Shown here: piece by piece, positions 8,957-25,004 of the stretch
Numbering within the stretch: the first letter of the stretch is position 1
Layout of the letters: each line of letters opens with the position of its first letter
NCBI GenBank assembly: GCA_016936975.1
Contig: JAFGWU010000004.1
Coordinates: forward strand, 1-64,000
Direction of reading: 5' to 3'
DNA: 64,000 nt
From: Bacteroidales bacterium
GTDB lineage: Bacteria; Bacteroidota; Bacteroidia; Bacteroidales; GCA-2748055
Made by a program: the position numbers and the translations under genes
Notes under the pieces: model-generated
Told to the model about the DNA's origin: nothing
Databases searched by the model: none
The model's input: only the letters and a program-made list of their open reading frames with translations

Positions 8957-11404
8957 ATGATTGAAAATGAAAAGGATGCTTTGCATGAAGAGAACAATAC
9001 GAATGAAAGCACTCAGGAAGAATTTAATGAAAATCCTCAGGAAGAGGTAACTGCCGAACCGGAAGCTGAAGAAACTGCCCCGGTGGAATCCAAAACCCGG
9101 GAGAAATCGAAAAAGGCTGCTCCGGACAAAACCGAATCATTGGAACCCGAACCCGAAGAAATTAAGGCTGAGGAAAGTGTTCCCGAAGAATCCCCCACAG
9201 AAGCTTTGAAGTCAGAAGAACCCGAACCGGGAGAACCAGAAGTGCCGGAAGCCGGAAAGAGTGAAACGGAAGCTTCTGAGCCCGCAGAGGAAGTAAAAGC
9301 TGAAGAGCCGGCAGAAGAGCCGGCAGAAGAGTCGGCAGAAGAGTCGGCAGAAGAGTCGGCAGAAGAGTCGGCAGAAGAACCTTCTGAAGTACCTGCTGAG
9401 GAGACGGAAAAAGTGGAAGAACCTGAAGCTGATGCAGCGGAAGAATCCGTTGCAGAAGCGGAAGAGAAACCGGAACCGGAAAAAGCAGAGGCGAAATCAA
9501 CGGAAGAGGCGGATGAAGAGGTAACCGAAAAGGTTGCCCCGGAAGAAGCCGTTGAAAAAAATGCTTCAGCAGTAAGCGGACTGCTTGAGACCGGTAATCC
9601 CGATTTTGACTGGGACGAGTTTACTGAGGAGGAGGCGGACAAAAGAGCATCCGACAAAGCAAAATTTGAAGAACTTTACAATGAGACCCTTTCAACGATT
9701 GCAGAGAATGAGGTGATCGAGGGAACGGTTATCTCGCTGAACAAGAGAGAAGCGGTTATTAACATCGGATTTAAATCGGAAGGTGTGGTATCCATCAGCG
9801 AGTTCCGTTACAATCCCGATCTGAAGGTCGGCGACACGGTGGAGGTTTACGTGGAGAGCCAGGAGGACAAGAAAGGTCAGCTGATCCTTTCCCACAAGAA
9901 GGCCCGCGCCATGCGTTCCTGGGACCGTGTGAACCAGGCCCTCGACCAGGATGAGGTGATCAAGGGATACATCAAATGCCGTACAAAAGGCGGTATGATC
10001 GTGGATGTGTTCGGCATCGAGGCGTTCCTGCCGGGATCGCAGATCGATGTGAAGCCAATCCGCGATTATGATGCATTCGTAGGCAAAACCATGGAGTTCA
10101 AGGTGGTGAAGATCAACCACGAATTCAAGAACGTGGTCGTTTCCCACAAGGCCCTCATCGAAGAGGAGCTGGAACAGCAGAAGAAAGAGATTATCGCCAA
10201 GCTTGAAAAAGGACAGGTTCTGGAAGGGACCGTTAAAAATATTACCTCCTATGGTGTGTTCATTGACCTGGGCGGCGTGGACGGATTGATCCATATCACC
10301 GACCTGTCGTGGGGCCGGGTGAACCACCCCGAAGAGATTGTGGAGCTCGACCAGAAGCTGAACGTGGTGATCCTCGATTTCGATGATGATAAGAAAAGAA
10401 TTGCCCTGGGTCTGAAACAGCTTACCCCGCATCCGTGGGATTCGCTGGATGAGAAACTGGCCATAGGAGATAAGGTGAAGGGAAGAGTCGTGGTGATGGC
10501 CGATTATGGAGCCTTCGTGGAGATCGCCCCGGGCGTGGAAGGATTGATTCATGTATCGGAGATGTCGTGGTCACAGCACCTCCGCAGTGCCCAGGAGTTC
10601 ATGACCGTGGGGGACGAAATAGATGCCGTTATCCTGACCCTCGACCGTGAGGAAAGAAAGATGTCGCTGGGCATCAAACAGCTGAAGGAAGATCCGTGGG
10701 AAAAAATTGAAGAAAATTACCGGGTAGGAACCAAACATACTGCAAAAGTTCGTAACTTTACTAACTTCGGTGTCTTTGTGGAGATCGAGGAAGGCGTTGA
10801 CGGACTGATTCATATATCAGATCTGTCGTGGACGAAGAAGGTGAAGCATCCCGCTGAGTTCACATCGATCGGGGCTGAAATTGAGGTGGTGGTCCTGGAA
10901 ATCGACAAGGAAAACCGGCGGCTGAGCCTCGGACATAAACAGCTCGAAGAGAATCCGTGGGATGTGTTTGAAACACTCTTCGAGGTGGATTCGGTTCACG
11001 AAGGTACGATCATTGAATTGATGGATAAAGGTGCGGTTGTGGCACTGCCTTATGGAGTTGAAGGTTTTGTTACGCCAAAACATCTTGTAAAAGAGGATGG
11101 TAGTCCTGTTAAACTTGATGACAGGTTATCTTTTAAGGTGATAGAGTTTAATAAATCAGCAAAAAAGATTATCTTGTCTCATAGTCGCATTTATGAGGAT
11201 CAGAAGAAATCATCCGAAAAAGCAACCAAACAGGCAGCAGATGCAGAAACCAAGAAAGCGACCAGGAAGATAAAGGCCAATCTCGAGAAGACAACCCTTG
11301 GCGATATATCCGACCTGGCAGCTTTGAAGGATGAGATGGAGAAGAAGGAGAAGAAGGAGAAGAAGGGAAGAAAGAAGGCGGAAGACGACAAAACATTAGA
11401 ATAA
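8957..11404 (+). CDS. rpsA: 30S ribosomal protein S1 with long acidic N-terminal extension
   Basis: The 815-residue protein has six S1 OB-fold repeats from about residue 250 to 745, recognisable by blocks such as GTVKNITSYGVFIDLGGVDG, GLIHITDLSW, GLIHVSEMSW and GLIHISDLSW. S1 binds mRNA on the 30S subunit and promotes initiation. The first 210 or so residues are an unusual Glu/Ala/Pro-rich acidic tail with EESA/EEPA tetrapeptide repeats, and the C-terminus is Lys-rich. E. coli S1 is about 557 residues, so the extra length is almost all in the tail. The next gene, a STAS protein, starts 30 bp downstream. Confidence 0.96.
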   Translation: MIENEKDALHEENNTNESTQEEFNENPQEEVTAEPEAEETAPVESKTREKSKKAAPDKTESLEPEPEEIKAEESVPEESPTEALKSEEPEPGEPEVPEAGKSETEASEPAEEVKAEEPAEEPAEESAEESAEESAEESAEEPSEVPAEETEKVEEPEADAAEESVAEAEEKPEPEKAEAKSTEEADEEVTEKVAPEEAVEKNASAVSGLLETGNPDFDWDEFTEEEADKRASDKAKFEELYNETLSTIAENEVIEGTVISLNKREAVINIGFKSEGVVSISEFRYNPDLKVGDTVEVYVESQEDKKGQLILSHKKARAMRSWDRVNQALDQDEVIKGYIKCRTKGGMIVDVFGIEAFLPGSQIDVKPIRDYDAFVGKTMEFKVVKINHEFKNVVVSHKALIEEELEQQKKEIIAKLEKGQVLEGTVKNITSYGVFIDLGGVDGLIHITDLSWGRVNHPEEIVELDQKLNVVILDFDDDKKRIALGLKQLTPHPWDSLDEKLAIGDKVKGRVVVMADYGAFVEIAPGVEGLIHVSEMSWSQHLRSAQEFMTVGDEIDAVILTLDREERKMSLGIKQLKEDPWEKIEENYRVGTKHTAKVRNFTNFGVFVEIEEGVDGLIHISDLSWTKKVKHPAEFTSIGAEIEVVVLEIDKENRRLSLGHKQLEENPWDVFETLFEVDSVHEGTIIELMDKGAVVALPYGVEGFVTPKHLVKEDGSPVKLDDRLSFKVIEFNKSAKKIILSHSRIYEDQKKSSEKATKQAADAETKKATRKIKANLEKTTLGDISDLAALKDEMEKKEKKEKKGRKKAEDDKTLE
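9302..9373 (+). repeat. In-frame 12-bp tandem repeat inside rpsA
   Basis: Six 12-bp units, two GAAGAGCCGGCA followed by four GAAGAGTCGGCA, encode the tetrapeptides EEPA and EESA. The period is a multiple of three, so slippage would change the length of the acidic tail without breaking the frame. Confidence 0.9.
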
Positions 11405-11434: not shown

Positions 11435-11782
11435 ATGGAATTCAAAATTGATAAATTCGAGAATCACACCCTGATTAAGGTGCTTGAGGAAAAGCTTGAT
11501 ACGCATATTGCTCCTACACTTAAATCGGAGTTGGTTCTTGTTTCAGGAAACGGTGAAAAAAACATCATCCTTGATTTGAGTAACTGCCGTTATTGCGACT
11601 CTTCGGGTCTGAGTGCCATTCTTGTGGCCAACAGGCTCTGTAAAAATGCCAATGGAACCTTTGTGCTCACCGGCTTAAATGATGCCGTGGAGCGACTGAT
11701 TACCATTTCGCAACTGGATACGGTGCTGAATATTACAGATTCAGTGGAAAATGCCGTGACCCTGATCAAAGAAGCTGAATAA
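11435..11782 (+). CDS. STAS-domain anti-sigma factor antagonist
   Basis: The 115-residue protein is a single STAS domain. The motif NIILDLSNCRYCDSSGLSAI places the phosphorylatable Ser at residues 56-57, as in SpoIIAA-like antagonists. In partner switching, the dephosphorylated form binds a kinase or anti-sigma factor; the partner is not visible next to this gene. It is between rpsA and rnz, 30 bp from one and 13 bp from the other, all on the same strand, so the three may share a transcript. A second STAS protein is encoded at 24315-24653. Confidence 0.9.
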   Translation: MEFKIDKFENHTLIKVLEEKLDTHIAPTLKSELVLVSGNGEKNIILDLSNCRYCDSSGLSAILVANRLCKNANGTFVLTGLNDAVERLITISQLDTVLNITDSVENAVTLIKEAE

Positions 11783-18739: not shown

Positions 18740-18768
18740 TTGACAGATTATTATTTTTTATATATTTG
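18740..18768 (+). promoter_or_regulatory. Bacteroidota promoter upstream of siaB-like gene
   Basis: TTG at 18740-18742, an 18-bp spacer and TATATTTG at 18761-18768 fit the consensus. The ATG of the kinase gene is 43 bp downstream. Confidence 0.7.
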
Positions 18769-18811: not shown

Positions 18812-19372
18812 ATGAGCTTTGATGTAAACGAGTACTACTCCAGGATGGATGGCGGAGAGATCCTGATGGCCTACAAAGGCAACATTTCCAGTGAGCTCAT
18901 CAGCAATGTCCTTGAAGTGGTGGAATCCCGAATGGATAATTACAGCGAAGATTCCAGGATCCGTAAAAAGGTTTACAATGTTCTGGTTGAAAGTCTGCAG
19001 AATCTCTACCACCATATCGAAGCGTTGCCGGAGCGGATGCAGAATGAGTATGATGAAAAATTTGGGATACTGGTTGTTTCAAAGGTTAAGGATCGCTACA
19101 GGATATCGACCGGTAATTTTGTCACAGGTGAACGGGTGGAGATTCTGAAGAACAAGATCGATAAGATCAATTCGATGACCAGGGAGGAGCTGAAGGATAT
19201 GTACAAGTTCATCCTGAACCACCAGCGGTTATCGGAAAAAGGCGGAGGCGGCCTCGGGCTTGTCGACATTGCCAGGAAGACAGGGAACAAACTGGATTAC
19301 AGGTTTGAGAAATTTGATGACACCTATTTCTTCTTTAACCTCGACGTATACATTGATTCGTTAAATGAGTAA
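18812..19372 (+). CDS. siaB: SiaB-family protein kinase (DUF6272)
   Basis: The 186-residue protein resembles SiaB, a small GHKL-fold Ser/Thr kinase. Visible features are the N-box-like segment NVLVESLQNLYHHIEALPE, where Glu/Asn would bind magnesium, and the glycine-rich loop SEKGGGGLGLVDIARKTG near residue 142. In Pseudomonas aeruginosa SiaB phosphorylates SiaC and so controls the diguanylate cyclase SiaD. Here the SiaC homologue follows 21 bp later. No SiaA-like phosphatase or SiaD-like cyclase is in the window, so the downstream target is unknown. Confidence 0.88.
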   Translation: MSFDVNEYYSRMDGGEILMAYKGNISSELISNVLEVVESRMDNYSEDSRIRKKVYNVLVESLQNLYHHIEALPERMQNEYDEKFGILVVSKVKDRYRISTGNFVTGERVEILKNKIDKINSMTREELKDMYKFILNHQRLSEKGGGGLGLVDIARKTGNKLDYRFEKFDDTYFFFNLDVYIDSLNE

Positions 19373-19393
19373 CAATAAACATTTAATATAACT

Positions 19394-19774
19394 ATGGAAC
19401 CACTATCGATTGAAGGAACCGCAAAAACGCCGAGTGTTAAATTCGACGGACAGGAAGGCATTCTTGAAATAAAAGGGAGATCGATTCCTGAAAACTCCAT
19501 TGAGTTTTACAAGCCATTGGTGGAGTGGCTGGAGGAGTATGGCAAGAATCCATTGAATCTTACCCAGGTAAATGTGCAACTGGAATACTTCAATACGAGC
19601 TCTTCGAAGTGCATCCTCGATGTGTTTAAAAAACTGGAATCCATCCATAAAGGTAAAACCGAGGTGATTATTAACTGGTATTACGAAGAGGATGATGAAG
19701 ATATGCTCGAAGCAGGGGAAGATTACGAATCCATCATCCGGGTTCCGTTCAAGATGATTGAGATCGTGGAATAG
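19394..19774 (+). CDS. siaC: SiaC-family regulatory phosphoprotein (DUF1987)
   Basis: The 126-residue protein matches SiaC: it opens MEPLSIEGTAKTPSVKFD and has LEYFNTSSSKCILDVFKKLE, where the Thr at residue 68 corresponds to the phosphorylated Thr68 of P. aeruginosa SiaC. The acidic YYEEDDEDMLEAGEDYE segment is also typical. In the characterised system the unphosphorylated form binds and activates a diguanylate cyclase. It lies directly after siaB with the same orientation and is followed by a strong terminator, so siaB-siaC form a closed two-gene unit. Confidence 0.92.
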   Translation: MEPLSIEGTAKTPSVKFDGQEGILEIKGRSIPENSIEFYKPLVEWLEEYGKNPLNLTQVNVQLEYFNTSSSKCILDVFKKLESIHKGKTEVIINWYYEEDDEDMLEAGEDYESIIRVPFKMIEIVE

Positions 19775-19797
19775 AGATAGTGTGCATAAAAATAATG

Positions 19798-19828
19798 AAA
19801 GGGTGTTGATGAAACATCCTTTTTTTTT
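19798..19828 (+). terminator. Rho-independent terminator after siaC
   Basis: The stem AAAGGGTGTT (19798-19807) pairs with AACATCCTTT (19813-19822), with one G-U pair and a five-base loop, and runs straight into a T-tract to 19828. It is placed between the convergent siaC and ABC transporter genes. Confidence 0.85.
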
Positions 19829-19879
19829 GAAGAATCCCGGAAAATTCCTTCACGGTGATTCCCGCCGGCCACCGGCTCT

Positions 19880-22800
19880 TTATTCCCTCTGTCTCGATCC
19901 CGTTCCCTCAAACATCTCCAGGATGCGCTTCAGAACCCTGAAGTATAGCAGGATGTAAAGCAGGAGTGTCATTACCCAGATAACCATTATGTTAACCCAG
20001 ATGGTCGGGAAGTAGGTTCCGAACACCATCTTACGCGGTGCATAGAAGTGGGCCCTGACAAACCTGCTGGTGGGATCAAGAAAGATGGGTTCAATCTTCT
20101 GAATAAGCGCTCCCTTATACTCGGTGATCCGTTCAAATTCATTTTTATTGGTCACAAATTCTTCCAGCGATTCATTATGATGTTTACGCTTCATGGCCTG
20201 AAGCTCGTTCAGGTCGAACCGGTGCGTGATATCGTCGGAGGCTTTGTAGGCGGTTCTGTAGGTTGTGGAATAAAATTCCCTCAGCGCGGACAGGTACTCA
20301 CCGGTATACTCCAGGATTTCAGGGTTAATCGTTCCCGGATGGAGCTGGTCTGAGCCCTTCATCGAAAAAGCGGGGGTTTCGGGATAGTAAGACTTGAAAA
20401 TCAGCCGGTCCCTGTATTCCTTTTCTATCTCGTTTCTGATAACCTCCAGGTTGTAGGCGATCCTGTCTGCAGCATCCTCTTTTTCCAGATCACCCGCAAC
20501 CGCCTCAAGCTTGTTCTGGAGATCCTTCAGCAGGAAATTGGATTTGAAGCCCGCATTGCTCCGGACCTTATCCCAGTAATAGAAGTGCTTTTCGTACTCA
20601 TTATTCATGAACTGATAGGTGGCGAGCCCTTCATATGCCCACCGCGCTGAGAATATCTCACCATAGAGGGGGATGCGGCTCGGGGAGGATATGGTCGGAT
20701 TCAGTTTCTCGTATTTCACAATTACCCCGCTGAGAATGATCTGGGGAATCACCAGGAAGGGTATCAGTATATATATGGTTACGACGGTCTTGAAACTGTC
20801 TGAAATAAGCAGGCCCATAAGGTTTGAAGAGGCCCATGCCGAGAAGAGAATAACCCAGTATTCCAGGTACATTCCCTTGATTTCCATGATGGAATTACCG
20901 ACCAGAACAAAGGTGAGCGCCTGGATGGCAGAGAGCATGAACTGAACGGACACTTTTGCCAGGAGGTAACCCGACCAGCTGAGGTTGAGAAAGGCTTCCC
21001 TTTTCAGGATCTTCCGATCCTTGATGATCTCTTCGGCACTGACCGTCAGGCCCATGAAGATGGCCACAATCACCGACATGAAGATGTATACCGGCAGGTT
21101 ACTGTTGTCGAGCAGGGTGTATCCATACTCATTGGATACCCCTACGTTGTAATATTTAACAATAAATGCAAGGAGAAAGGCCAGGAGCGGTGCTTCAAGG
21201 AAATTGATGAAGAGGTACTGGGTATCGCTCAGTTTTTTTAGAATATCCCGTTTCAGGAACACCATGAACTGTTTAAAACGGCCCGGTATCCTGAAGGATA
21301 TTTCGGGCAGTTCTTCTTTACCTGCCCTCTCTTCCCCTGCTTCCCTGTAATGCTTTTTAAAATGACTGCTCCACTCTTTCGGGGATACACGCCGCGTGTG
21401 TGTGACCTTTCCGTATTCATCCAGCACACTGGTCTCCACGATATTGAAAACCTGTTCGGGATTCACATTTCCGCATTTGGGACACTCGCTCTCATTCCAG
21501 TCGGCGTGCTGCATCTCCGATTTAAAATAGATGATCGAGTCGATGGGATTCCCGTTATATATAAGGTATCCCCCCGTATCGAGGATCAGAAGACGGTCGA
21601 ACATCTTGAAGATATCGGACGAGGGTTGGTGGATGACTACAAAAACCAGTTTACCCTTGAAAGAGAGTTCCTTCAGGAGATCCAGGATATTTTCGCTGTC
21701 GCGGCTTGACAGGCCCGATGTGGGTTCATCGAGGAAGAGCACTGCCGGTTCCCTGATGAGCTCAAGGGCGATATTCAGCCTTTTTCGCTGTCCCCCGCTG
21801 ATCTTTTTATTCAGGGGAGAACCGACCTGGATATCCTTGATTTCAAATAGCCCCAGGTTCTTCAAAACCCTGTTGACGGTTTCAACGATCTCTTCTTCCG
21901 AATAGTTTTCAAAGCAGAGCCTGGCATTGTAGTAGAGGTTCTGGTAAACCGTAAGTTCCTCGATCAGCAGGTCGTCCTGGGAAACATGCCCGATAATTCC
22001 CTCGATACCGGAATGGTCGCTGTGAATATTCACCCCGTTTATGAGGACTTCCCCTTCCGTAGGTCTGACCGAGCCATTGAGCACATTCAGCAGGGTTGAC
22101 TTCCCGGCACCACTGGCGCCCATGATCCCGACCAGCCGGCCCGATTTCTCAGTGAAGCTTATGTCGTGAAGGCCTGTGGAACCGATCGGGAACCGGAAAG
22201 TGATATGTTTCGCCTCAAAAACAATTCTGGATTTGATCCGGTCACTGACAAACCGGGAAACGACATCACTGTAATAGACGGGGGCGATCTGCTGGTTACG
22301 CAGGGAGGAGCCGGTTGTAAGCGGGTAGGTGCTGTACTGCTGGAGGAGCTGGCCGTTCATGTACATCTCCGACTGTCCGATGTATTTTGTGAAGCAGAGG
22401 TTTGTGGAGGGGACATGAACAAATCTGATCTGTCCGGTCAGATTATCCCGGTGGATGTGCTTTATCCGCTCCTTCAGATATTTACCGTCTGTACTGTCGG
22501 CATACAGGTAATGGTCTGAACCGGGGAGTTCCCTGTCCGACAGCACAAAGTCCCTGATAACCTCATACTCTTCCTTCGGGATGTTGAAGGTGTCGGCAAC
22601 CGTTGTGACAAATTCCATCTCCTGGTCGGTAACCTCCTCGGTCTTCGACTTGATGAATTCCAGGAGCTGAAACAGGACGATGACCTTCTGGGGCTGGGCC
22701 AGCTCTTCGTTGATGGCTGTGCAGATCTTCAGCACCCGCACGGACCTACGGGCCAGCAGGCTTCGTTTTTTGGTCACCTTTTCCTCTTCTTCTTCAATAT

Positions 22801-22969
22801 TTTTCTTGTAGAAGGTGTCAAAAACCCGCAGGTATTCGGTAACCAGTTCCTGGTTGAGCTGTCTTTTGAGAAAGGATTCCACAACCGGACGGCGGTCGGC
22901 TGCATTGCTTTCGGGCCTGGCAATTATGGCGAATAACTGCATCAATGCCTTTAAGATCTCTTCGTTCAT
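19880..22969 (-). CDS. ABCG-type ABC transporter with N-terminal TerB-like domain
   Basis: The 1029-residue protein fuses several parts. Residues 1-150 are a helical, acidic TerB-like region (LKALMQLFAIIARPESNAAD). The nucleotide-binding domain has Walker A GIMGASGAGKSTLLN, signature ISGGQRKRLNIALELI, Walker B VLFLDEPTSGLSS and the switch His in VVIHQPSSD. An ABC-2 permease with about six membrane segments follows, interrupted by a long extracytoplasmic or cytoplasmic loop before the last helix. The order NBD then TMD is that of ABCG half transporters. A CPKCGN motif lies in the linker. Substrate unknown. Confidence 0.9.
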   Translation of the reverse strand: MNEEILKALMQLFAIIARPESNAADRRPVVESFLKRQLNQELVTEYLRVFDTFYKKNIEEEEEKVTKKRSLLARRSVRVLKICTAINEELAQPQKVIVLFQLLEFIKSKTEEVTDQEMEFVTTVADTFNIPKEEYEVIRDFVLSDRELPGSDHYLYADSTDGKYLKERIKHIHRDNLTGQIRFVHVPSTNLCFTKYIGQSEMYMNGQLLQQYSTYPLTTGSSLRNQQIAPVYYSDVVSRFVSDRIKSRIVFEAKHITFRFPIGSTGLHDISFTEKSGRLVGIMGASGAGKSTLLNVLNGSVRPTEGEVLINGVNIHSDHSGIEGIIGHVSQDDLLIEELTVYQNLYYNARLCFENYSEEEIVETVNRVLKNLGLFEIKDIQVGSPLNKKISGGQRKRLNIALELIREPAVLFLDEPTSGLSSRDSENILDLLKELSFKGKLVFVVIHQPSSDIFKMFDRLLILDTGGYLIYNGNPIDSIIYFKSEMQHADWNESECPKCGNVNPEQVFNIVETSVLDEYGKVTHTRRVSPKEWSSHFKKHYREAGEERAGKEELPEISFRIPGRFKQFMVFLKRDILKKLSDTQYLFINFLEAPLLAFLLAFIVKYYNVGVSNEYGYTLLDNSNLPVYIFMSVIVAIFMGLTVSAEEIIKDRKILKREAFLNLSWSGYLLAKVSVQFMLSAIQALTFVLVGNSIMEIKGMYLEYWVILFSAWASSNLMGLLISDSFKTVVTIYILIPFLVIPQIILSGVIVKYEKLNPTISSPSRIPLYGEIFSARWAYEGLATYQFMNNEYEKHFYYWDKVRSNAGFKSNFLLKDLQNKLEAVAGDLEKEDAADRIAYNLEVIRNEIEKEYRDRLIFKSYYPETPAFSMKGSDQLHPGTINPEILEYTGEYLSALREFYSTTYRTAYKASDDITHRFDLNELQAMKRKHHNESLEEFVTNKNEFERITEYKGALIQKIEPIFLDPTSRFVRAHFYAPRKMVFGTYFPTIWVNIMVIWVMTLLLYILLYFRVLKRILEMFEGTGSRQRE

Positions 22970-23090
22970 TGCAAGCGATGTAACGGATAGGTTTGAGGTG
23001 TCACTCCGACACCATCGAAGATAATAATAATAACATTATGAACCAGCATGAACCGTTGTTGATCCTGTTACCGTTTAACGAAAAAAAACG

Positions 23091-23171
23091 CTGAACCGTT
23101 TCATTTCTTTTCTCCTGTTTTTCTGCATGCTGTTACAGGGCTGTACGGCGGGCGCCGGACACAGGGAGAGC
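23091..23171 (+). pseudogene. Possible lipoprotein signal-peptide remnant
   Basis: An open frame without a standard start reads LNRFISFLLFFCMLLQGCTA, which looks like a lipoprotein signal with lipobox LQGC. It then runs antisense into the 3' end of the PepSY gene, where the frame stays open by chance to 23339. The only ATG, at 23127, is inside the hydrophobic part. It may be the stump of a deleted gene or a coincidence. Confidence 0.25.
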
Positions 23172-23738
23172 TTAGAACCAGAGATAAATGGCCAAAAAGA
23201 TGAGCGGGATGAGGATGCCAATGAGGGTGAGGATGCCTCCCCGGCGGGTGATGCTGTTTTTACCCCTCACGATGAACAGACCGGAAACAGCCAGCAGGAT
23301 CAGGGAAACCGCATAGAGATCGGAGAACCAGGTCCATAATTGTTTGGGCTTGTTGTAGTGCAGGTAGTTTACCTCCCTGAAGACGGGCCGGTTCCTCACC
23401 TTAACGAGCAATCCCTTACCGGTCTTAAGGTTGAGAGTGATATGACCCCCTTTCAGGTAAATCATCAGCTCCCTGTCGGAAGGAAAGTAATATTGTTTGT
23501 AATTATCTGTCTCTCCCACCTGTTCCAGGATATCCCGGATTACTTCTTTGTCGACCGATTTCTTTGTCAAGCCGGGATTGACTTCAAATTGTTCCGAGCG
23601 GATAACGGTATCCGGGGTCCAGTGCCTGGCAACGTAATGATTCAGGGCGATGCCGGAAAGCCCGTATATGATGGTCATTCCAAAAAAAACATATCCCAGC
23701 TCACGGTGAAGCCATCGGTTCCATTTTCGCCAGTTCAT
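23172..23738 (-). CDS. PepSY-associated transmembrane protein
   Basis: The 188-residue inner-membrane protein has an N-terminal helix after NWRKWNRWLHRELGYVFFGM, a periplasmic PepSY-like part (residues 40-125) with NLKTGKGLLVKVRNRPVFRE, and two C-terminal helices (LYAVSLILLAVSGLFIVRG and LIGILIPLIFLAIYLWF). Family members are linked to iron, haem or flavin reduction and siderophore handling, but function is not proven. The lipoprotein gene upstream is 5 bp away on the same strand, so the two are probably one unit. Confidence 0.88.
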   Translation of the reverse strand: MNWRKWNRWLHRELGYVFFGMTIIYGLSGIALNHYVARHWTPDTVIRSEQFEVNPGLTKKSVDKEVIRDILEQVGETDNYKQYYFPSDRELMIYLKGGHITLNLKTGKGLLVKVRNRPVFREVNYLHYNKPKQLWTWFSDLYAVSLILLAVSGLFIVRGKNSITRRGGILTLIGILIPLIFLAIYLWF

Positions 23739-23743
23739 ATGGA

Positions 23744-24190
23744 TTATTCCGTAATTTCCCTGTAGCTTGATGCTTCGAGAAAATAAGCGGCATTTTCTGC
23801 TTCCTTGTGAGCCCTTTCATTCTGATGATGAACCATGGAATCATTCGATTCCTGAAGTTCGGTTGTTTCGGCGACGGTAAGTGTTTTGAATATGCCGGTG
23901 AACTCCACAGTGGAGCCTTCCAGCGCCACGTCGAACTCATCGAGTTCCGGTCCGGCATTGACCCTGATCTGGGATTCCCCGTCCCCGGCAAGCACAAAAC
24001 ACTTCTGCCCGCCGTGTTTGCAGACATGGGTTACCATGCCGGTCAGAACCACCGCCTTTCCTTCAAAATCTCCGGGGCTGGCAAGGATCTCTTCAATAGC
24101 AGCGGATACCGCATCCCCTGATTTTTTTTCGGACTGGTTGCAGGCGATCATCATCACCGGCAATACAAACAATAAGAGCGTTTTTTTCAT
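23744..24190 (-). CDS. OB-fold lipoprotein
   Basis: The 148-residue product has a lipoprotein signal, MKKTLLLFVLPVMMIACNQS, with Cys17 as the lipidated residue. The body looks like a small OB-fold (FEGKAVVLTGMVTHVCKHGG, then a core of alternating strands). The motif VCKHGGQKC has two Cys and one His that could bind a metal. The downstream partner is the PepSY membrane protein. A role in metal or haem handling at the envelope is only inferred from that pairing. Confidence 0.75.
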   Translation of the reverse strand: MKKTLLLFVLPVMMIACNQSEKKSGDAVSAAIEEILASPGDFEGKAVVLTGMVTHVCKHGGQKCFVLAGDGESQIRVNAGPELDEFDVALEGSTVEFTGIFKTLTVAETTELQESNDSMVHHQNERAHKEAENAAYFLEASSYREITE

Positions 24191-24314
24191 AATTCTGTCT
24201 CCTCCTGTGATTAATATCAGCGGGTAAAAATATAAAAAATGAATGAAATTACACCTCCGGGCCCGGGGGAGAAAACAGAGGCCGGCTGATGAATGGATGT
24301 TGAAAGCTTCCCTG

Positions 24315-24653
24315 CTATTCGAAACTCTTTAAGCACTCATCAAGGTCCCGGTATATTTCGAACACATTGTGAAGCTGAAGCAGTTTGAACAGTTCCATGA
24401 CCTCCTTGTTCACACTGCAGATTTTGAACCTGCCGCTGTTGCTGTTGGCTGCCTTCAGTGCGGAAAGAAAGACCCCAAAGCCGGAGCTGTCGATAAACTG
24501 GATCCCTTCCAGGTTCAGAATGATTTTTACATTCGGTTTCTCGTAATATTCCAGCAGTTTTTCCTTAACCGGTCCGGCAATCAGAGAATTGAACCGGTTT
24601 GTATCCGCGAATGATAATACAAGAATGTCATTGATGTTTTTACTTTTGAGCAT
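24315..24653 (-). CDS. STAS-domain anti-sigma factor antagonist
   Basis: The 112-residue single-domain protein has the STAS core KIILNLEGIQFIDSSGFGVF, with Asp55 and the phosphorylatable Ser56/57. It would act in partner switching with a serine kinase and a phosphatase. The Hpt gene is 24 bp upstream on the same strand, and the SiaB/SiaC pair is 5 kb away, so several phospho-signalling parts are clustered. No anti-sigma kinase of RsbW type is adjacent. Confidence 0.9.
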   Translation of the reverse strand: MLKSKNINDILVLSFADTNRFNSLIAGPVKEKLLEYYEKPNVKIILNLEGIQFIDSSGFGVFLSALKAANSNSGRFKICSVNKEVMELFKLLQLHNVFEIYRDLDECLKSFE

Positions 24654-24677
24654 CGGGTTTGGTATGAGAGGTTAATG

Positions 24678-25004
24678 TCAGGTATTCAATTCTTCCAGTA
24701 CCTGCCTGCAGGTGGTCATAAACCTGTTGACATACTCCCTGCATGCTTCCGGATCTTTTCCTTCCCTGGCCATCAGCTCCAGTTCCTTCAGGTATTCCGC
24801 CTCATCGTTCATTCCCATTATGGCAACAGATGATTTTGCCTTGTGGGCCAGCCTGGAGAGGTTTGCATAATCGGACTGCTCAAGCAGCAGGGGCATCTCT
24901 TTCAGATATTCAGCAACCTGCTCCCTGAAAATATCCACCATCTCACCTATGAATTGTTCATCGCCGCCCGACAGGGTTCGCAAATAGTTTAAATCTATGA
25001 TCAT
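24678..25004 (-). CDS. Histidine phosphotransfer (Hpt) domain protein
   Basis: The 108-residue protein is one four-helix Hpt domain. The phosphorylated His is His54 in LSRLAHKAKSSVAIMGM, the standard H-x-x-K-S pattern. It would relay phosphate between a hybrid histidine kinase and a response regulator, neither of which is in the window. It is the first gene of a two-gene unit with the STAS protein, an unusual pairing of a phosphorelay and a partner-switching component. Confidence 0.9.
   Translation of the reverse strand: MIIDLNYLRTLSGGDEQFIGEMVDIFREQVAEYLKEMPLLLEQSDYANLSRLAHKAKSSVAIMGMNDEAEYLKELELMAREGKDPEACREYVNRFMTTCRQVLEELNT

Follow-up and report, generated by a model that had tools for sequence, protein, structure and literature searches.

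We analysed a window of 64,000 nucleotides from a Bacteroidales bacterium (positions 1 to 64,000 of the forward strand of JAFGWU010000004.1, assembly GCA_016936975.1), which corresponds to contig 62 of a 3.48-Mb genome that is 89.9% complete. The subject of this analysis is a two-gene unit encoding a SiaB-like kinase and a SiaC-like phosphoprotein, together with the ABC transporter gene that converges on it.

The siaB-siaC unit, the convergent transporter and a second locus

18761..18768, plus strand: TATATTTG, candidate -7 element of a Bacteroidota-type promoter, upstream of siaB (by eye)
18812..19372, plus strand: SiaB-like protein kinase, DUF6272, GHKL type (profile matches; E60 and N64 conserved)
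19394..19774, plus strand: SiaC-like phosphoprotein, STAS-like fold family PF09345 (profile matches, alignment with 6kko)
19595..19597, plus strand: Thr68 codon of siaC (alignment with 6kko and column count)
19797..19823, plus strand: terminator-like hairpin followed by a T run, between siaC and the convergent ABC gene (sequence)
19880..22969, minus strand: ABC transporter of 1029 amino acids with an N-terminal extension and an ABCG-like order, nucleotide-binding domain before the ABC2 membrane domain (profile matches)
22541..22969, minus strand: predicted TerB-like helical domain, transporter residues 1-143 (AlphaFold model; VIA match to 2h5n)
22247..22522, minus strand: predicted FHA-like beta domain, transporter residues 150-241 (Foldseek, VIA, weak Mek1 sequence match)

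All genes named in the initial annotation of this DNA are present with the ends given there. It had described siaB and siaC as one closed unit, and this holds: the genes are 21 nucleotides apart and both families were confirmed by profile. The window SiaB matches the SiaB family kinase profile NF038262 at 1.6e-47 (161 bits, cut-off 85) and PF19788 at 8e-40, and SiaC matches PF09345 at 3e-45. The equivalog profile NF038264 scores 81.8 on the window SiaB, under its cut-off of 225, and the scores lie under the NCBI equivalog cut-offs for SiaA, SiaB and SiaC alike. A Pfam match of SiaB to FANCI_S3 was judged spurious. The candidate promoter element was matched by eye to TAnnTTTG, which we take to be the consensus of the Bacteroidota-type -7 element.

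The key residues of both proteins are retained. Thr68 of the window SiaC aligns exactly onto Thr68 of Pseudomonas aeruginosa SiaC (PDB 6kko, E 2.9e-20), and this position holds T in 75 and S in 6 of 81 SiaC rows, which confirms the conservation noted in the initial annotation. Y65, N67, S70 and W95 are invariant in the same 81 rows, and E60 and N64 of SiaB were found in 79 of 80 rows. In Pseudomonas Thr68 is the site that SiaB phosphorylates, and in the SiaC-SiaD complex SiaD is contacted by Y65, N67, T68 and S69. Phosphorylation of T68 blocks binding to SiaD, so that the target is bound by unphosphorylated SiaC (PMC8457831).

The window transporter matches PF00005 plus ABC2_membrane. Its residues 1-245 were modelled by AlphaFold with 77 sequences, and the resulting model (predicted local distance difference test, pLDDT, 91.2) shows seven helices followed by a beta domain, which we predict to be a TerB-like and an FHA-like domain, respectively. 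The helical part aligns with 2h5n of Porphyromonas, presumably a TerB-like structure (VIA Z 9.4, root-mean-square deviation 3.5, 117 aligned), and Pfam TerB gave a weak match (0.0087) on the paralogous transporter described below. The beta part matches almost exclusively FHA domains: the top Foldseek row was 5yyz (probability 1.00, E 0.012), VIA gave a Z of about 7 to many FHA domains (1g6g: Z 7.6, root-mean-square deviation 3.7, 88 aligned), and the FHA domain of Mek1 showed a weak sequence match to the N-terminus (E 0.38). Canonical FHA domains bind phosphothreonine through GR, SxxH and N residues. At the level of the 77-row sequence alignment these residues were not evident, and for this reason the domain is named FHA-like only. 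Reading of phospho-Thr68 by the FHA-like domain is treated as no more than a possibility, as the canonical motif is not evident and the Pseudomonas target is bound by the unphosphorylated protein (PMC8457831). Among the reading frames examined there was no fusion of SiaC with the transporter, only fusions of SiaB with SiaC. Such a fusion of 291 amino acids, followed by a second SiaC, is present in two loci (L246:1932-2807 and L247:1937-2812).

A profile search of the contigs revealed five SiaC and two SiaB genes in the window genome. On contig C97 the genes for CheR, a HAMP/GAF/PAS sensor, a GAF protein, a SiaA-like PP2C, SiaB, SiaC, a transporter, a lipoprotein (Lp) and a small secreted protein are all arranged in one direction. 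The C97 transporter is a paralogue with 44% identity over the length of the window protein, and the transporter is therefore a shared neighbour of both SiaB-SiaC pairs. The C97 PP2C domain matches SiaA (NF038263 at 1.2e-45, under the equivalog cut-off; 6k4e at 1.4e-33), and it is one of nine SpoIIE/PP2C matches in the genome, two of which are pieces of one reading frame. No GGDEF match was found in the profile search of this 89.9% complete genome. The initial annotation had reported the phosphatase SiaA and the cyclase SiaD as missing. This is correct for the window, where no SiaA-type PP2C lies beside the SiaB-SiaC pair; as for SiaD, the genome search likewise gave no GGDEF. SiaA is not missing from the cell, because a SiaA-like PP2C adjoins the second pair, directly upstream of it. 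The discovery of both homologues elsewhere in standard wiring, together with a lack of interaction with STAS/Hpt, had been named as a result that would speak against the annotation; the search returned the phosphatase and no GGDEF.

Two other SiaC genes of this genome have different neighbours. The third SiaC (contig 50, L018:6667-8298), with Ser at position 68, starts 12 nucleotides after a MacB/FtsX-type ABC permease, so that in this genome SiaC also adjoins an ABC transporter of another kind. The fifth (contig 30, L020:5029-6261) lies beside a protein of 267 amino acids without a Pfam or NCBIfam match.

Linkage to the transporter across the order

Occurrence was surveyed in 149 genomes of the order, with an identical draw for every profile, and in a phylum draw of 247 genomes. 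Within the order, SiaB is present in 64 genomes and SiaC in 63, all inside the SiaB set. The transporter N-terminus was detected in 62 genomes, 57 of them with SiaB; seven genomes have only SiaB and five only the transporter (Fisher 3.6e-27, calculated like all co-occurrence statistics here without correction for kinship). In the phylum draw SiaB was found in 18 genomes and the transporter in five, all of which have SiaB.

Gene linkage was counted among the 150 matches listed per profile, which makes the linked count a lower bound. For at least 67 of the 150 transporter matches on the list, a listed SiaB or SiaC is found no more than 5 kb away, against about 1.9 expected by chance; 42 are colinear and 25 convergent. 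Among these matches the linkage was seen in 47 of 57 genomes, 19 of which contain both arrangements. A scan of named genomes, nearly all of them metagenome-assembled genomes, yielded at least 543 relatives; among those listed, the closest to the window genome are metagenome-assembled genomes of Bacteroidales. The best 80 loci were examined. Sequence of at least 1500 nucleotides beyond the transporter makes 62 of them informative; 47 of the 62 have SiaB or SiaC within 4 kb and 45 have both. The transporter, which the initial annotation had treated as mere surroundings, is instead a conserved partner of SiaB-SiaC across the order.

Cyclases are rare in the same genomes. At Pfam-profile sensitivity (E 0.001) GGDEF was detected in 5 and EAL in 1 of the 149 genomes. 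Only one of the 64 SiaB genomes has GGDEF, and G311 is the only genome with both SiaC and GGDEF. Because the two domains are rare across the order, the missing cyclase is a property of the group and not an assembly gap. An ordinary SiaABCD system, whose cyclase escaped detection through the incompleteness of the genome, would be compatible with an assembly that is 89.9% complete. We give this explanation next to no credence, as the counts for GGDEF and EAL stand against 63 genomes with SiaC, and the same profiles match in 8 and 6, respectively, of 14 well-known control genomes.

The reading that we favour, with slightly better than even confidence, is that SiaB-SiaC is a Ser/Thr phospho-switch of the SiaABC kind which targets the neighbouring ABC exporter instead of a diguanylate cyclase. 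Among the titles and opening lines of abstracts searched, with most subscription journals outside the scope, no paper ties the SiaB/SiaC pair to an ABC transporter or to Bacteroidota. Other proteins that are also called SiaC turn up in the literature, for example a Capnocytophaga sialidase.

Twenty colinear loci were fetched. As SiaB-transporter colinearity was the criterion of choice, only the remaining genes of these loci carry information. All 20 have a PP2C gene immediately before SiaB, and 18 have CheR upstream; the transporter is immediately followed by Lp in 19 loci, and 18 contain the small secreted protein. In locus L212 a gene of 186 amino acids in the row encodes a CheB methylesterase. 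For Lp a model with a pLDDT of 80.7, built on an alignment of 33 of the 37 Lp sequences listed, gave no clear PDB match, which does not show a new fold, and no clue to the substrate. This lipoprotein family (L017:3156-4479 and the Lp genes in L119-L198), which carries an SPSPYQ-like motif, and the small secreted protein beside the transporter had no family or fold match.

Transporters of the BceAB type report to a histidine kinase. By analogy, the transporter could be a sensor that reports through its N-terminal domain to the SiaA/SiaB pair, with SiaC acting on something else. The same gene linkage would fit, and so would the many SiaC copies per genome without a linked transporter. We consider this decidedly unlikely, since the transporter follows SiaC directly, with gaps of 15-183 nucleotides in the 20 colinear loci, and since the colinear operon has its own GAF/PAS sensors and CheR/CheB, so that an extra sensor is not needed.

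In phylogenetic trees, the transporters found next to colinear SiaBC fall into a single clade (22 of 22, support 100), as do the colinear SiaC proteins (22 of 22, 97/90). The SiaC tree, which is based on few columns and has long branches for L018, L019, L020 and L234, places the convergent SiaC proteins almost in a single group; in the transporter tree the convergent loci occur in more than one place. No number of linkage origins is claimed, because the root of the transporter tree is unknown. SiaC and the transporter appear to have kept pairing since duplication. A mirror-tree test of SiaC against the transporter gave a partial correlation of 0.58 given RlmL (36 loci) and was not used as evidence.

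Several observations weigh against an exporter as the target of the pair. The distance correlation is of similar size for the unrelated neighbours GuaA (0.48, 27 loci) and S41 protease (0.52, 28 loci), which is why the mirror-tree test was set aside. SiaBC is not nearby in 15 of the 62 informative loci, nor beside 30 of the 112 transporters in the tree. Seven of the 64 SiaB genomes lack this transporter and many genomes have up to 21 SiaC copies, which means that further SiaC targets must exist. Conservation extends to much of the convergent neighbourhood, RlmL among other genes, and therefore part of the linkage is inherited order. Finally, siaBC and the transporter of the window are convergent with a terminator-like hairpin between them and are therefore not one transcript.

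In the strongest form of this objection, SiaBC and the transporter are adjacent in the window by inherited order alone and the output of SiaC lies elsewhere. The finding that 37 of the 47 linked loci have RlmL close to siaB, the separating hairpin and a distance-correlation test that does not discriminate all agree with this. We nevertheless regard it as rather unlikely. The colinear arrangement involves a paralogous transporter and different neighbours, in the same genome and in others, a divergent arrangement of transporter, SiaB-SiaC and PP2C was found once, in genome G253 (L234), and the presence and absence of SiaB and the transporter are tightly coupled. Among 20 further regions, mostly picked as seemingly unlinked transporters, five were linked, including the divergent one; at least two of the five (L240 and L243) were already listed as linked in the survey.

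In G256, G262, G282, G301, G307, G315 and other genomes 13-21 SiaB or SiaC copies were counted, and many SiaB proteins of such high-copy genomes are located in reading frames of 370-530 amino acids.

The Hpt-STAS pair on the opposite strand

Upstream of the transporter gene, four further genes are encoded on the same strand.

23172..23738, minus strand: PepSY_TM-like membrane protein (profile match; retained only in nearer relatives)
23744..24190, minus strand: small lipoprotein, no family match (profile search)
24315..24653, minus strand: STAS protein of the anti-anti-sigma type with DSSG (STAS match 1.5e-15)
24678..25004, minus strand: Hpt protein (Hpt match 2e-10; His54 in 24 of 24 rows)

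STAS and Hpt had been described as a unit of their own on the opposite strand, and they are indeed a conserved two-gene pair with retained key residues: the genes are 24 nucleotides apart without a gene between them, and the serines of DSSG are kept in 32 of 32 and 28 of 32 STAS rows. Loci L119, L120, L121, L123 and L139 match the window arrangement, with its Hpt, STAS, lipoprotein and PepSY genes, in every gene, as does L240 in the same-family genome G253.

The initial annotation had further suggested a composite pathway in which Hpt, STAS, SiaB and SiaC act together. Of the 47 loci that extend 8 kb or more upstream of the convergent transporter, 17 have the pair there, and it accompanies 14 of 31 SiaBC-linked but only 1 of 11 unlinked loci; together with the retained His and Ser residues, this could speak for a common pathway. 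However, 16 of these 17 loci belong to one neighbourhood type, without Lp, and other genes often intervene between the pair and the transporter. Lp occurs without the Hpt-STAS pair in 21 loci, SiaBC-ABC persists in those other types, and the pair went undetected in all 20 colinear loci. As Hpt-STAS is not tied to SiaBC, the composite pathway is not supported, and we hold it to be very improbable. Hpt-STAS is most plausibly a phospho-signalling pair in its own right, encoded next to the others. Two RsbW-like kinases and one GAF-PP2C are encoded elsewhere in the genome and might serve the STAS protein.

In the HptB-HsbR-HsbA cluster Hpt, a response-regulator PP2C and STAS are encoded together. 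The window locus is similar in that Hpt and STAS proteins occur together, and different in that no response-regulator phosphatase gene lies between them; one may act in trans. The precedent for Hpt plus STAS comes from P. aeruginosa (PMC6482189; PMC5085249 is a further paper listed for this system).

A second stand-alone STAS gene is located in the window at 11435-11782 (plus strand), between an S1-like gene and RNase Z, and the order STAS, RNase Z, GuaA recurs in several related loci, e.g. L167, L168 and L175. The ribosomal protein S1-like gene (8957-11404, plus strand; family assigned by eye) has a long acidic, repeat-rich N-terminal extension.

Proposed phospho-switch and its relation to known systems

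The protein families, their key residues, the arrangement and co-occurrence of the genes and the near-absence of cyclases are observed here; phosphotransfer, binding of SiaC to the exporter, the sign of the control and the substrate are matters that we infer. SiaB would phosphorylate SiaC on Thr68 and a SiaA-like PP2C would remove the phosphate. For the window pair this PP2C probably acts in trans, e.g. from the C97 operon, where it is encoded beside PAS/GAF sensors and CheR. SiaC would bind the exporter and set its activity in one of its phosphorylation states, most likely without the phosphate, as with SiaD in Pseudomonas, and the docking site is probably the TerB-like/FHA-like N-terminal extension or the adjoining ATPase.

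The SiaABCD system of P. aeruginosa consists of the PP2C phosphatase SiaA, the kinase SiaB, the phosphoprotein SiaC and the diguanylate cyclase SiaD. The Bacteroidales loci share with it the SiaB and SiaC families, Thr68 in its YxNT context, SiaB encoded next to SiaC, and, beside the paralogous C97 pair, a SiaA-type PP2C. They differ in the absence of SiaD, in the TerB/FHA-like ABC exporter that adjoins SiaC and in scores under the equivalog cut-offs. In Pseudomonas SiaC binds and activates the co-transcribed enzyme SiaD, and the same eLife paper proposes that modulation of a neighbouring protein is a common role of DUF1987 proteins (PMC8457831); set against this proposal, the adjacent protein here is an exporter.

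Regulation of an ABC transporter by a small STAS-fold protein has a parallel in MlaB, which binds and supports the ABC ATPase MlaF (PMC7367683). The likeness is drawn here from gene linkage, and unlike MlaB of the Mla phospholipid transporter, the STAS-like SiaC has its own kinase and phosphatase. A second parallel is Rv1747 of Mycobacterium tuberculosis, an ABC exporter that is read through its FHA domains by a phosphothreonine protein (PMC5549992). The window exporter would resemble it in an N-terminal domain of the FHA type and in threonine phosphorylation nearby, both of which are predictions here. In contrast to Rv1747, the FHA-like domain lacks an evident canonical motif and is preceded by a TerB-like domain, and the kinase is of the SiaB and not of the Hanks type.

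More tentatively, and with somewhat less than even confidence, the proposal may be extended to much of Bacteroidales. SiaC would then be a reversible, phospho-switched regulatory subunit of the TerB/FHA-like exporter, comparable to a switchable MlaB, and the colinear operon would be driven by a methylation-tuned CheR/CheB/PAS/GAF/PP2C array. SiaABC would be a general partner-switch whose output has been swapped between cyclic di-GMP synthesis and export.

SiaABC, which comes from a biofilm pathway of Pseudomonas, has so far been read as a cyclic di-GMP device, and the same phospho-switch is abundant in an order nearly without cyclic di-GMP enzymes. The position of the cyclase is taken by a specific exporter, which provides a testable prediction for the roles of DUF1987/SiaC proteins outside Pseudomonas. 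If this is true, Ser/Thr phosphorylation could gate an ABC exporter, a new way in which bacteria may control export.

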